A stretch of DNA of 64,000 nt, taken from Bifidobacteriaceae bacterium. GTDB taxonomy: Bacteria > Actinomycetota > Actinomycetes > Actinomycetales > Bifidobacteriaceae. The stretch covers positions 496,001 to 560,000 of the forward strand of contig JALCQD010000002.1 of the NCBI GenBank assembly GCA_022651005.1, read 5' to 3'. The notes below the pieces were generated by a model that was not told where the DNA came from, ran no database searches, and saw only the letters and a list, made by a program, of their open reading frames with translations. Below are positions 14,798 through 47,701 of the stretch, in pieces (positions within the stretch are counted from its first letter, which is position 1; each line of letters opens with the position of its first letter). The translations under genes and the position numbers were made by a program.

Positions 14798-14956
14798 CAC
14801 AAGGGGTGCAGAGTGGCGCAGAGTATTGGTACGGCCTTTGAGAATATGGGCAGGCGCGAAGCAGGCATTACAACGTATTGAATAGCCGATAATGTACGTT
14901 ATGTCAGATTAGGATACGATTGTGAGTCACTTTATCGATTTCTCGTCTCCCCTTCG

Positions 14957-28734: not shown

Positions 28735-29520
28735 TCACCATCGATGCGTTGCGCGCACAGTGAGACCAGCATGAGCGAGTTCTGACTTGACCTCGGGAAT
28801 GCTCACCTTGCCAAAATGAAAGACAGAGGCTGCCAACACGGCGTCCGCCCCTGCTTCAATGGCCTTGGGAAAATCTTTGGCAGTGCCAGCACCGCCGCTG
28901 GCGATGACTGGAATAGATACGGCGGCACGCACCTTTGAGATCATCTCGGTGTCGTACCCATCTTCTGTGCCATCAGCGTCCATAGAGTTGAGCAGGATCT
29001 CGCCTGCGCCGAGTTCCTCGGCACGCTTGACCCACCACAGCGCGTCAATGCCTGTGGAGGTGCGGCCCCCGTGTGTGGTGACTTCAAAACCTGACGGAGT
29101 ATGCTGCGATCCCTTTTCACGGCGTGCATCGAGTGACAGTACGAGCACCTGGCGCCCAAAGCGCTGTGCAATGCGGGCGATAAGGTCAGGATCGTTGATT
29201 GCGGCAGTATTCACGCCCACCTTGTCTGCGCCACAACGCAGGAGATTATCCACATCATCAGTGGTGCGCACTCCCCCGCCCACTGTCAACGGAATGAAAA
29301 GCTGTTCAGCGGTCCTACGCACCACGTCATACATGGTGTCGCGGCCGGAGCTAGAAGCAGTGACGTCGAGGAATGTCAATTCATCGGCACCTTGGCGATA
29401 GTATTCAGCAGCCAACTCAACGGGGTCCCCAGCGTCACGCAAGTTCTTGAAATGAACGCCCTTGACAACCCTGCCGGCATCGACATCAAGGCAAGGAATA
29501 ACACGGACTGCCAAGGACAT
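28735..29520 (-). CDS. hisF: Imidazole glycerol phosphate synthase subunit HisF
   Basis: A 261-residue TIM barrel that uses ammonia from HisH to close the imidazole ring. The catalytic aspartates sit in '[17 protein letters not shown]' (D12 region) and '[12 protein letters not shown]'; phosphate loops are '[13 protein letters not shown]' and '[15 protein letters not shown]'. HisH, HisA and HisB are not in the window, so the histidine genes are spread over several loci. The ~140-bp gap to hisI probably holds that gene's promoter. Confidence 0.97.
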
Positions 29521-43531: not shown

Positions 43532-44656
43532 ATGACTGAAGAGATTTCAATCGGCCGCGGTAAGACCGGCCGCATGGCGTATTCACTGGACGACGTTGCC
43601 GTTGTCCCCTCTCGTCGCACCCGCGATCCTCGCGACGTCTCCACTGGTTGGCAACTCGACGCCTATCACTTTGACATTCCCGTTCTGGGAGCTCCCATGG
43701 ATTCGGTGATGAGCCCTCAGACCGCCATTGCTCTGGGCAAGGCCGGCGGCCTCGGCGTTCTCGATCTTGAAGGCCTGTGGACTCGTTACGACGACCCCAC
43801 CCCTTATCTCGACGAGATTGCACAGCTACCGGACGATAAGGCGACGGCACGCATGCAGCAGATTTACGCGGAGCCCATCAAGCCAGAACTCATTACGAAG
43901 CGACTCCACGAGATCCGCAATGCCGGTGTCACCGTAGCGGGAGCGCTTACTCCCCAGCGCACGCAGGAGTTCTACTCAGTGGTGCTCGATGCAGGCGTCG
44001 ATCTCTTTGTCATTAGAGGGACGGCGGTGTCTGCGGAACATGTTTCGACCAACAGCGAGCCGTTGAACCTCAAGCGCTTTATTTATGAGCTTGACGTCCC
44101 GGTCATCGTAGGAGGAGCCGCCACCTACACGGCGGCACTGCACCTCATGCGCACGGGGGCCGCAGGTGTCCTTGTGGGATTCGGCGGCGGAGCGGCCTCT
44201 GCCACACGCACGGTTCTCGGAGTTCATGCTCCCATGGCCTCCGCCATTTCTGACGTCGCGGCGGCACGCCGCGATTACATGGATGAATCGGGCGGACGTT
44301 ACGTTCACGTCATTGCCGATGGCAGCATGGGGCTCACTGGCAGCGTCATCAAGGCTGTGGCATTGGGTGCTGACGCCGTCATGTTGGGCACGGCTCTCGC
44401 TAGAGCGGACGAGGCTCCAGGACACGGCATGCATTGGGGTGCGGAAGCACACCACCCCGAGCTTCCGCGTGGCTCACGCGTCAACGTGGGCACGGCAGGT
44501 TCGCTGGATCAGATTCTTTTCGGTCCCAGCCATGCTGCAGACGGCCGAACCAACTTCGTAGGTGCTCTACGCCGCGCCATGGCCTCGACGGGGTACCTGG
44601 ATCTCAAGGAGTTCCAGCGCTGCCGCGTGGTCGTCACGCCGTATCAGCAACTGTAA
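43532..44656 (+). CDS. guaB3: GuaB3-family IMP dehydrogenase-related protein
   Basis: A 374-residue TIM-barrel protein of the actinobacterial/cyanobacterial GuaB3 group. 'GKTGRMAYSLDDVAVVPSRR', 'LGAPMDSVMSPQTAIALGKA', 'GGRYVHVIADGSMGLTGSVI', 'ALGADAVMLGT' and 'LRRAMASTGYLDLKEFQRC' place it in the IMPDH/GMPR superfamily. The CBS domains of GuaB2 are absent. The catalytic loop that reads 'GPGSICTT' in IMPDH is 'GGGAASAT' here, so the nucleophilic Cys is missing. In cyanobacteria GuaB3 works as an IMP dehydrogenase; the actinobacterial members have no agreed function. AGAGG precedes the ATG. Confidence 0.9.
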   Translation: MTEEISIGRGKTGRMAYSLDDVAVVPSRRTRDPRDVSTGWQLDAYHFDIPVLGAPMDSVMSPQTAIALGKAGGLGVLDLEGLWTRYDDPTPYLDEIAQLPDDKATARMQQIYAEPIKPELITKRLHEIRNAGVTVAGALTPQRTQEFYSVVLDAGVDLFVIRGTAVSAEHVSTNSEPLNLKRFIYELDVPVIVGGAATYTAALHLMRTGAAGVLVGFGGGAASATRTVLGVHAPMASAISDVAAARRDYMDESGGRYVHVIADGSMGLTGSVIKAVALGADAVMLGTALARADEAPGHGMHWGAEAHHPELPRGSRVNVGTAGSLDQILFGPSHAADGRTNFVGALRRAMASTGYLDLKEFQRCRVVVTPYQQL

Positions 44657-44695
44657 ATGCGCATCATGCACTGAGACGTAAGCGTAAACGTAGAG

Positions 44696-44745
44696 GAGAC
44701 AGATGAGGGGCGATTCCAAGAAAGGGATCGCCCCTCATCTGTCTC
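44696..44745. terminator. Long perfect hairpin after guaB3 (probable terminator)
   Basis: A 19-bp perfect stem (44696-44714 with 44727-44745) with a 12-nt loop lies 40 bp after guaB3. There is no clear T-run on either side, so it may be a weak bidirectional terminator or an RNA end-protecting stem. Confidence 0.6.
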
Positions 44746-44787
44746 TCTTCATCTATCAAATTCAAAAAGGTTTTCACTGCGTGTGAG

Positions 44788-44860
44788 TTATCCACACTTT
44801 CAGCGGCGTGGAAATGCCGTTTCTCATAACGCTGTCACCATTTTGAGCCCGTTATCCACA
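44788..44860. promoter_or_regulatory. Two DnaA-box consensus sequences upstream of the unknown gene
   Basis: TTATCCACA occurs at 44788-44796 and 44852-44860, both on the plus strand. A third exact copy is in reverse orientation at 45209-45217 inside the following gene, and an 8/9 match is near 47602-47610. These are perfect or near matches to the DnaA-binding consensus. No replication origin genes are present, so a regulatory or titration role is more likely than an oriC. Confidence 0.5.
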
Positions 44861-44912
44861 AATTTTGTGCGTCACTTGTCTGGTTGACACATCCGTCGAT
44901 AAAATTTTCGGT

Positions 44913-45401
44913 ATGAACGACGACGTTATACAGGTCGTGCGGTTCAGAGAGACCAATGCTTTGCATCTGGAGAGAAGACTGTATAAAAACTCGCCACCAG
45001 TGCGTATGAGTATTTCTTTCTGCGACCCACGAGACCGCAGTGCTGCGGAATGCATTCAGTTGGCAGAAAAAAGTTGCCGCGTGGCATTTCATGCCACGGA
45101 CGTGGCGCGCGGACGCCTTCAGCCCTCCATGTTGAAGCGTGAGATGACCGCAATCCTCATTGAGCAGATCCTCAACATCGACGCCTATCTCACCATTCAT
45201 CACAATTTTGTGGATAAAAAAACGCTACTATTTACGCCGCACTTACCGATTCAAATTTGTGGACTTCAGGGGACGATAATCCACCCTGACCGCTTCGACG
45301 CCTGCATTTCAATGAAAATCGGAGCCCAGAACCATTGTGTCAACGTGGTTCTCTGTCTTGTGGGAAGCCGATGGATCTGCACGGAATTTCAGTTGGCATA
45401 G
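44913..45401 (+). CDS. Conserved-looking hypothetical protein of unknown function
   Basis: A 162-residue soluble protein with no motif I recognise. It has a basic start ('MNDDVIQVVRFRETNALHLE'), several Cys (e.g. 'ISFCDPRDRSAAECIQLAEK', 'PIQICGLQGT'), and no signal or membrane segment. The likely ATG is at 44913; the ribosome-binding site is weak, and the frame is open further upstream. It stands alone between guaB3 and the first acyl-CoA synthetase, with the 19-bp hairpin before it. DnaA-box-like sites flank and lie within it. Codon use looks similar to its neighbours by eye, so no sign of recent transfer. Confidence 0.65.
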   Translation: MNDDVIQVVRFRETNALHLERRLYKNSPPVRMSISFCDPRDRSAAECIQLAEKSCRVAFHATDVARGRLQPSMLKREMTAILIEQILNIDAYLTIHHNFVDKKTLLFTPHLPIQICGLQGTIIHPDRFDACISMKIGAQNHCVNVVLCLVGSRWICTEFQLA

Positions 45402-45467
45402 AACAGCCGAGAGAAAAACTTGTCTCACATTCGATCTTTCTCAGGTGAGGCGAATATAGTCGGAAGA

Positions 45468-47576
45468 ATGCTACGTGAATATTCGACTCCCATGTCGCAA
45501 CAACTCACAGACGATTCTGATACCTTCTACAGACTGCTTTTCCTCCGCGCGCAGAGATTCCCTGACGATACGGTGGCCCAGTACAAGGACCCAACAGGGA
45601 AGCGGTGGATCAGTGTATCGGCAACACAAATGCATGAAACTGTGCGTGCCGCCGCCAAGGGTCTCATGGCTCTCGGCGTAACGAGAGGCGATGCCGTCGT
45701 CATTTACTCGGCCACGCGCTACCAGTGGGGAATCGTGGATTTTGCGTGCGCCGCTGTGGGAGCAGTCTTGGTTCCCATCTACGAAACGGATTCACCCACT
45801 CAGGCCCTTGGCATCATCACTGATGTTTCTCCAAAGGTCGCTTTTGCCGATAGCCCCGAACGCACCTTGACGCTGGAAACGGCAAAAACCTCGGTCGAGA
45901 GCCTCTCGTACGTTTTCAACTTTGAGAACGACGGCCTTCAAGCTCTCAAGGATTGGGGAACGTCCATCACCGAGGACGATCTCGATGCACGCATCAAGAC
46001 GATCGGCGCCGACGATCCTGCCACTATCGTTTACACCTCCGGTTCCACAGGAAAACCTAAGGGAGCCGTTCTTTCCCACCGCAACTTCATTCATCTGGCA
46101 CGCGCAGGCTGGGAGGTTCTTCCCTCCATGCTGGCGGAACCCAGTCGACTTCTGCTTTTCCTTCCGCTGGCTCATTGCTTCGCGCGCTACATTCAGTACG
46201 TTGCCATCGGATCCCGCGGAGTGGTGGGCTACGTCCCCTCAGCAGCGCACTTGCTCACTGACCTGCGCTCCTTCAAGCCCACGTACCTCCTCGGCGTGCC
46301 CCGTGTTTTCGAGAAGGTCTACAACGCCGCGTCTCAGAAAGCGGGAGCAGGTTTCAAGGGCAAGATTCTCGCGAAAGCGTATGCCCATTACATCAACTGG
46401 TCCAAGGACGAGCAGGAAGGCGTTGCGCACTCACCCTCACAGGTCGTGGAACACGCCTTCTACGAGAAGGCCGTCGGAGCCACCGTCCGCTCTGCGCTGG
46501 GATCAAACCTCAATTGGCTGGCCTGCGGCGGAGCTCCGATGGACCCGAATCTCGCTCATTTCTTCAACGGTATCGATGGCATCACCTTCATTCAGGGCTA
46601 TGGCATGACTGAAACCGCTGCGCCCTGCTGCGTGAACTTCGAGGCGTTCAACAAGATCGGTACTGTAGGCCGCCCCGGACCTGGCATCTCCGTCAAACTC
46701 GCTGACGACAACGAACTCATGATCGCCGGCCCCGGCGTCTTCCTCGGGTACAAAGACAACCCAGAAAAGACGGCCGAAACCATCGATAAGGACGGATGGT
46801 TGCATAGCGGCGACCTCGCCGAAATCGACGACGATGGCTTCGTCACGATCACAGGCCGCAAAAAGGACATCATCATCACTGCAGGCGGCAAGAACGTGGT
46901 CCCCTCCCCCATGGAAGGCATCATCTCGACGTGTCCTATCGTCTCTCACGTTGTGGTGGTAGGTGACGCTAAGCCCTTCATCTCTGCTCTCGTCACCCTG
47001 GAACCCGACACCTTAGGGAACTGGCTCAAATCGAAGAAGCTGAACCCCGAAATGAGCATCGAACAGGCCTCCACCAACGAGGCAGTGCGCTCCTTCGTGC
47101 AGCAATACATCGACAAGGCCAACCTCTCTGTTTCTCGTGCGGAGTCAATCCGCAAGTTCGTTATTCTCACGGACGACTTCACACAGGAGGACGGCACCCT
47201 GACACCGAGTCAGAAGGTCGTGCGGCCGGGCGTCATCAAGCGGTACGCCGGTGTCATCGCCACGCAGATCTACACGGCAAAGCCTGGAACTCAGCCAGAG
47301 CCCCGTCCCGCGAATCCGCTGTTGACGCGCACGGGAGAAGCCGTCAAAGACATGAACGACGAGGTGACACGTCTGGCGAAGGCAAGCGTTGAGACCACGC
47401 GTGAGCGCATCGAGCCACTGGTGGATATTGCGCGGACGGGAGTGAACGACTCCATCAACGCCTGGAGGCAACGTGGCGCCGAAGATCAGGCAGATTCATC
47501 CGCAGAAAAACCCGCCTCCTCTTCCAACGAATCCGAAGCCTCTGACGACTCCGAATCCTCAAAGGATCGCGACTAA
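45468..47576 (+). CDS. Long-chain acyl-CoA synthetase (FadD15-like), first copy
   Basis: A 702-residue AMP-forming ligase. Core motifs are 'VYTSGSTGKPKGAVLSHRNF' (P-loop), 'FIQGYGMTETAAP' (adenine site), 'GWLHSGDLAEIDDDGFV' and 'GRKKDIIITAGGKNVVPSPM' with the hinge. The last ~90 residues form an Ala/Ser/Glu/Asp-rich tail not part of the fold. It activates fatty acids as acyl-CoA; no beta-oxidation genes lie nearby, so incorporation of exogenous fatty acids is more likely. The start is uncertain: ATG at 45468 has GGAAG close upstream, ATG at 45492 does not, and the frame is open from TTG at 45420. Confidence 0.9.
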   Translation: MLREYSTPMSQQLTDDSDTFYRLLFLRAQRFPDDTVAQYKDPTGKRWISVSATQMHETVRAAAKGLMALGVTRGDAVVIYSATRYQWGIVDFACAAVGAVLVPIYETDSPTQALGIITDVSPKVAFADSPERTLTLETAKTSVESLSYVFNFENDGLQALKDWGTSITEDDLDARIKTIGADDPATIVYTSGSTGKPKGAVLSHRNFIHLARAGWEVLPSMLAEPSRLLLFLPLAHCFARYIQYVAIGSRGVVGYVPSAAHLLTDLRSFKPTYLLGVPRVFEKVYNAASQKAGAGFKGKILAKAYAHYINWSKDEQEGVAHSPSQVVEHAFYEKAVGATVRSALGSNLNWLACGGAPMDPNLAHFFNGIDGITFIQGYGMTETAAPCCVNFEAFNKIGTVGRPGPGISVKLADDNELMIAGPGVFLGYKDNPEKTAETIDKDGWLHSGDLAEIDDDGFVTITGRKKDIIITAGGKNVVPSPMEGIISTCPIVSHVVVVGDAKPFISALVTLEPDTLGNWLKSKKLNPEMSIEQASTNEAVRSFVQQYIDKANLSVSRAESIRKFVILTDDFTQEDGTLTPSQKVVRPGVIKRYAGVIATQIYTAKPGTQPEPRPANPLLTRTGEAVKDMNDEVTRLAKASVETTRERIEPLVDIARTGVNDSINAWRQRGAEDQADSSAEKPASSSNESEASDDSESSKDRD

Positions 47577-47701
47577 AACAACAACTCATCGCGAACTGTG
47601 GAGTGGATAACCACGGCTCGCGATAGAATAACAGACGGCTATCAGACGGGTGTGAGATGCGCTCGTCGTTCTCGATGGTTGACTTGACAGTTTGGAGCAT
47701 A

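Follow-up and report, generated by a model that had tools for sequence, protein, structure and literature searches.

Why does a gene for a small protein in a genome of the Bifidobacteriaceae lie among several perfect matches to the DnaA box? The window that we analyzed is a 64,000-nt stretch (part of contig 2 of a draft genome), and in it the exact 9-mer TTATCCACA occurs at 44788-44796 (+ strand), at 44852-44860 (+ strand), and at 45209-45217 (- strand), just where the first-pass annotation had placed it. The first copy starts 125 bp before the ATG of a gene at 44913-45401 (+ strand), the second is close to its putative promoter, and the third lies inside the gene, across codons for F-V-D-K. 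There is also a fourth copy, which the first-pass annotation did not mention, at 29246-29254 (+ strand), in an ORF that we identified by eye as hisF-like. Four exact copies in the window is far above the 0.19 that would be expected by chance, and none of 100 shuffled sequences reached four. If one mismatch is allowed, then the window contains 10 copies, as compared to 8.3 expected, and 28 of 100 shuffles reach 10. Because one-mismatch copies are at the level expected by chance, the copy at 47602-47610 (TTATCCACT), which had been listed with the cluster, adds no weight to it, and we rejected it as a part of the cluster.

The whole draft genome (2,162,097 bases) contains 31 exact copies of TTATCCACA, as compared to 7 copies of the reversed word, which we used as a control. 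Fifteen of the 31 copies are in just four clusters of at least three boxes: the gap between dnaA and dnaN (5 boxes), the region upstream of dnaB (4 boxes), the gap between crgA and a rhomboid gene (3 boxes), and the locus studied here (3 boxes). The genome's own replication origin uses the same 9-mer, with five exact copies between dnaA and a dnaN-like ORF (dnaN was identified by eye). The concern that the 9-mer might be equally dense elsewhere was not borne out, either by this excess over the control or across the family, where the boxes concentrate upstream of the gene (see below). The four boxes upstream of dnaB (L033:7942-8041; C3:374941-375040 in this genome) have counterparts in other Bifidobacteriaceae: 21 of 30 dnaB loci have at least one exact box within 700 bp upstream.

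At 44913-45401, there is an intact open reading frame for a protein of 162 amino acids. The longest version of it would open at a TTG at 44865, but we took the ATG at 44913 as the start because relatives from the same genus align from there. The protein shows a weak but significant similarity to DUF6459 (PF20060; 25.6 bits, E = 1.6e-5), which is 1.4 bits short of Pfam's gathering score of 27 bits. PF20060 matches 14 of 21 aligned members of the family with E ≤ 0.01 (the best is 6.4e-7). Also, when the family's profile was compared to a profile of DUF6459 domains from other Actinobacteria (built from 15 of 24 matches from outside the family), hhalign reported a probability of 95.9% over 98 columns, with E = 5e-9 for a single comparison. 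Outside of the Bifidobacteriaceae, the DUF6459 gene is followed by a secA-type ORF in seven of the eight loci that we read (identified by eye and by a tail motif). In contrast, the gene in the window is not near secA. Instead, it is flanked by guaB3 (an IMP dehydrogenase-related protein) at 43532-44656 (+ strand; TIGR01304, 559.8 bits versus a cut-off of 342.1) and by an AMP-binding acyl-CoA ligase at 45420-47576 (+ strand; PF00501, 242.7 bits; its start codon is provisional). From these profile matches, we conclude that the gene is related to DUF6459 but divergent, and that it has another genomic place; it differs from DUF6459 itself by its score below Pfam's cut-off, by its neighbors, and by the DnaA boxes in its promoter. 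The closest named loci that we found for its protein are in the Bifidobacteriaceae metagenome-assembled genomes UW_DM_BIF4_1 (64% identity) and UW_DM_BIF2_1 (50% identity).

The predicted structure of the protein says little about what it does. The AlphaFold model has a pLDDT of 75.8, and residues 44-162 look NTF2-like. Among the 50 VIA structure matches listed, Z scores were 7.9-9.6 over 95-115 residues, which is barely above the level that is usual when there is no clear match; the matches listed include VirB8, NTF2, and CaMKII hub domains. Foldseek's best match to the model had E of only 0.022, and the best match in a search by sequence for a relative of solved structure had E = 1.1. So, the protein looks NTF2-like, and the fold gives no sure word on its function. 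A search of the open-access literature found nothing on DUF6459. For Rv3235 of Mycobacterium tuberculosis, which we take to be a member of DUF6459 (PF20060), such a search found a vaccine review.

Between guaB3 and this gene, a promoter scan identified a sigma-70-type promoter at 44876-44905 (+ strand), with TTGTCT and TAAAAT separated by 18 nt. The scan found one promoter where 0.8 would be expected by chance, so this prediction counts only jointly with the spacing in relatives (described below). There are 15 nt between the box at 44852-44860 and TTGTCT, and 7 nt between TAAAAT and the ATG, which hints at a leaderless mRNA. With the ATG as the start of transcription, this box would be centered at about -57. 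A TTGACA is also present, starting 23 nt past the box; no -10 element lies at the usual distance from it. Further upstream, there is a strong hairpin behind guaB3 (44690-44765, + strand; -48.7 kcal/mol, z = -9.9 relative to shuffled sequences), which is a possible end of transcription; it has no run of T's, and a terminator scan did not call a site there. We also considered an RNA element in this region and rejected it, as the sole match in an Rfam scan was far under its cut-off.

If the boxes regulate this gene, then they should recur beside it in other genomes. We found the gene in 164 of the 189 genomes of Bifidobacteriaceae that we searched, and we read the sequence around 130 of these orthologues (746.8 kb). 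(Of the other 34 genomes with the gene, four had been seen earlier: G004 and G019 have boxes, and G017 and G030 do not.) An initial look at 21 loci found exact upstream boxes in 10 of them. Across the 130 loci, 47 of 50 exact boxes are in the 450 bp that precede the match to the gene, two are 450-600 bp upstream, one is within the gene, and there are none elsewhere, including downstream. The single box within a gene is the window's own box at 45209. As this third box is not conserved, it is probably incidental, and we rejected it as a part of the mechanism. Forty of the 47 upstream boxes point towards the gene.

In its exact form, the box beside the promoter recurs in a minority of the loci: 41 of 130 have at least one within 450 bp upstream, while only about 1.1 boxes would be expected if there are 45 boxes in every 2.4 Mb (a density that we chose after seeing the density data). 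The other 89 loci have no exact box upstream. If up to one mismatch is allowed, then 66 of 130 loci have a copy upstream and 64 have none within 450 bp; in downstream stretches of equal length, just 2 of 130 loci have a copy. As another control, we considered all 1,680 words with the same letters and asked how many loci have each of them upstream, after removing near-identical loci (126 remained). TTATCCACA ranked first, with 41 loci, as compared to a mean of 0.35. Five other 9-mers are more common upstream of the gene; these overlap one another and probably derive from the end of the coding sequence of guaB3.

The boxes are distributed unevenly across the family. Exact boxes within 500 bp are found in all three loci from the window's own genus and in 3/3, 5/9, and 29/92 loci from genera g6, g8, and g14; they are sparse in g16 (2/13) and were not seen in g2 (0/5), g7 (0/4), or g12 (0/1). 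The first-pass annotation had stated that the loss of the sites in close relatives would count against it. We saw no such loss within the genus, but loss is common in the other genera. On a tree of the protein, the presence or absence of the exact box requires at least 25 changes, versus a mean of 35 if the states are shuffled. With one mismatch allowed, 21 changes are required (versus 43.7 if shuffled), and for a box before TTGAC, 15 changes are required (versus 31.6 if shuffled). (The tree was built with FastTree from a short protein. Also, the members of the family are related, so the counts of loci are not independent.) As judged from these counts, the box is inherited in part, yet it is gained and lost often, which is to say that it turns over quickly. 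Among 24 loci with DUF6459 genes from outside the Bifidobacteriaceae, we found essentially no boxes, just a lone TTGTCCACA upstream at -504 (one of these loci had no upstream sequence). Because boxes are nearly absent from these loci, the link between the box and the gene looks specific to the Bifidobacteriaceae.

There is also a preferred distance from the box to the promoter. TTGAC, which resembles a -35 element, is found upstream of the gene in 90 of the 130 loci and not in the other 40. In 39 of the 90, a box (at least 7 of 9 positions matching) lies 12-19 nt before TTGAC, and in 29 of these 39, the gap is exactly 16 nt. Bifidobacterium catulorum (L280), which can be cultured, has its box 15 nt before TTGAC. 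With the reversed word, we found this arrangement in 3 of 90 loci. (If a locus had several TTGAC, we used the best one; the control was handled alike.) We then searched all 189 genomes for TTATCCACA-N14-17-TTGAC and found 33 places in 29 genomes, as compared to 4 for the reversed control. We read 30 of these places, and 16 of them are in the gap between guaB3 and the DUF6459-type gene: 13 are before the gene, two are in the same gap on the opposite strand, and one is behind a guaB3-type ORF at the end of a contig. The remaining 14 include three parA-type genes and one gap between dnaA and dnaN (identified by eye). A target of DnaA would be expected to show such a signature, one that recurs chiefly at a single gene and is shared with the origin and with parA. 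The window's genome and two other genomes from its genus have no forward matches to this pattern; in the window's genome, this is because the hexamer is TTGTCT. By eye, one of the two congeners (G001) fits, with TTCGAA at a gap of 14 nt, and the other (G002) does not.

Two of the other settings of this pattern recur in several genomes. It precedes parA-type genes in three genomes of Bifidobacteriaceae (L193, L194, and L197; identified using Pfam for L193 and by eye for the others). It also precedes a gene with a SocA/Panacea domain at L192, L198, and L207, in three relatives with genomes of 1.5-1.7 Mb (identified using Pfam for L207 and by eye for the others).

If DnaA binds these sites, it might act in either direction. 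Activators usually sit just upstream of the -35 element. The preferred 16-nt gap (29/39) would place the box in this usual position, which argues against the idea that DnaA represses the gene, or that it binds without effect at sites that are only weakly maintained. On the other hand, the frequent gain and loss of the sites would fit with weak maintenance, and PMC8203912 describes other promoters, such as that of nrdAB, that DnaA activates or represses, as well as a possible contact of DnaA with RNA polymerase at ori-lambda. On balance, we consider repression or binding without effect to be quite unlikely. The proposal in the first-pass annotation that DnaA controls the gene thus gains support from the comparison across genomes, that is, from the recurrent upstream box, the 16-nt gap, and the fact that 16 of 30 sites lie in one gap.

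Is it DnaA that binds? According to PMC11317965, DnaA in E. coli is found in vivo mostly at paired boxes that are 2-3 bp apart, and just 13 of 32 single consensus boxes were in bound regions. By eye, the boxes in the window do not have partners at 2-3 bp, so they would be single by the rules of E. coli. Other loci of the Bifidobacteriaceae have partners at steps of 11-12 bp: we counted 24 at dnaA loci (132 boxes), 14 at dnaB loci (45 boxes), and 44 at crgA loci (45 boxes), where one box can count on both sides. At the promoter of the DUF6459-type gene, the partners are at steps of 8, 10, or 18, and just 1 of 47 boxes has a partner at a step of 12. As the commonest steps at 30 dnaA loci are 9, 12, 22, and 29, it could be that another regulator, with a site that resembles the DnaA box and forms tandem repeats with 8- or 10-bp steps, binds to the promoter.

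The commonest word at these promoters is the exact DnaA consensus, however, and a step-8 partner is present in the origin of the window's own genome. We searched for the 8-bp tandem TTATCCACATATCCACA and found it in 40 places in 27 of the 189 genomes (the reversed control had none). Of the 30 places that we read, seven hold the DUF6459-type gene and two look like gaps between dnaA and dnaN (L348 and L351; by eye); of the other ten, two match the coordinates of the DUF6459-type gene. That this tandem is apparently also used at the origin favors DnaA as the binder. We therefore think that binding by another regulator is unlikely, although we give this idea more weight than repression, and we infer that DnaA itself binds these sites. 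The same tandem is found beside a gene that resembles methionyl-tRNA synthetase in six genomes (L340, L341, L356, L364, L365, and L367; named by eye).

The location of the gene in the chromosome bears on the other suggestion in the first-pass annotation, a titration site similar to datA. In all 31 genomes that are in one contig, the gene is at 0.86-1.00 of the distance between dnaA and the point across the chromosome from it, with a median of 0.94 (two of the genome lengths, for G151 and G189, were rounded). As the window's genome is a draft, our sole guide to its terminus is a dif-like site at 14886-14907 (+ strand), 30 kb from the gene, with two mismatches to what we take to be the actinobacterial dif motif. 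As no other place in the genome matches this motif with two or fewer mismatches, the window is probably in the region of the replication terminus.

In a datA-like or DARS-like element, the cluster of boxes would titrate DnaA or change its nucleotide state, and the gene would be a bystander. Like datA, DARS1, and DARS2 of E. coli, this locus has a few clustered DnaA boxes and is not at the origin; three exact boxes are in 430 bp, and two of them are outside of the gene. In E. coli, the density of DnaA boxes is highest near the origin (PMC12371093), so a locus near the terminus would be a poor place for titration. Also, most relatives with boxes have a single one or a short array close to the promoter, there is no conservation of the third box, and the 11-12-bp paired step is nearly absent, unlike at some of the boxes at dnaA, dnaB, and crgA. 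Finally, datA and DARS are described as non-coding control regions (PMC4585315), whereas this locus resembles an array of promoter boxes near the terminus. We consider a datA-like or DARS-like element here to be very unlikely, and the comparison does not bear out that half of the earlier proposal.

crgA and a rhomboid gene are convergent, and the gap that separates their 3' ends has three exact boxes (L032:8237-8471; C3:296236-296470 in this genome). Across the family, at least two boxes lie 300-1000 bp past the start of the crgA match in 17 of 30 loci, and none of the 30 has a box within 700 bp upstream. In the eight genomes that we measured, crgA is 53-131 kb from dnaA. Because it is near the origin in these genomes and has paired boxes, this gap fits datA better, and on sequence grounds we view it as a better candidate for a datA-like element than the locus studied here. 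A search of the open-access literature found nothing that pairs DnaA boxes with crgA.

Our best reading is that DnaA controls the DUF6459-type gene, probably by activating it; we put the probability of this at roughly 60%. We propose that the two upstream boxes are binding sites for DnaA in the promoter of this Bifidobacteriaceae gene. When bound at 44852-44860, DnaA would sit immediately upstream of the -35-like element and might contact RNA polymerase there; the box at 44788, which is 64 bp more distant, may strengthen the binding. Bound DnaA would then raise the transcription of an mRNA that is possibly leaderless. Because the gene is near the terminus and its regulator would be the initiator of replication, its expression would follow the activity of DnaA, and the DUF6459-type protein could have a role in the cell cycle. 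Exact or near-exact boxes upstream of the promoter are likewise found at DnaA-activated promoters of E. coli (nrdAB and polA) and in the DnaA regulon of Caulobacter (which includes dnaB). Unlike those targets, this gene is near the terminus, belongs to an actinobacterial family, and has boxes with 8- and 10-bp steps rather than pairs at 2-3 bp.

DnaA initiates replication in nearly all bacteria, and its transcriptional targets are known in few groups. The comparative signal names one concrete candidate for a target of DnaA in the Bifidobacteriaceae, along with a promoter geometry that can be tested, and it suggests that the datA-like elements of this family are better sought elsewhere, such as in the gap between crgA and the rhomboid gene. 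It also gives a first hint of a role, in the cell cycle, for a protein family that has so far been without one. A broader idea, which we put forward only tentatively and consider unlikely, is that the Bifidobacteriaceae have wired a DUF6459-related protein near the terminus to direct control by DnaA, via promoter arrays with their own 8- and 10-bp steps. If this is true, then the expression of a gene at the terminus would report the activity of DnaA and would link the initiation of replication to its termination or to cell division.
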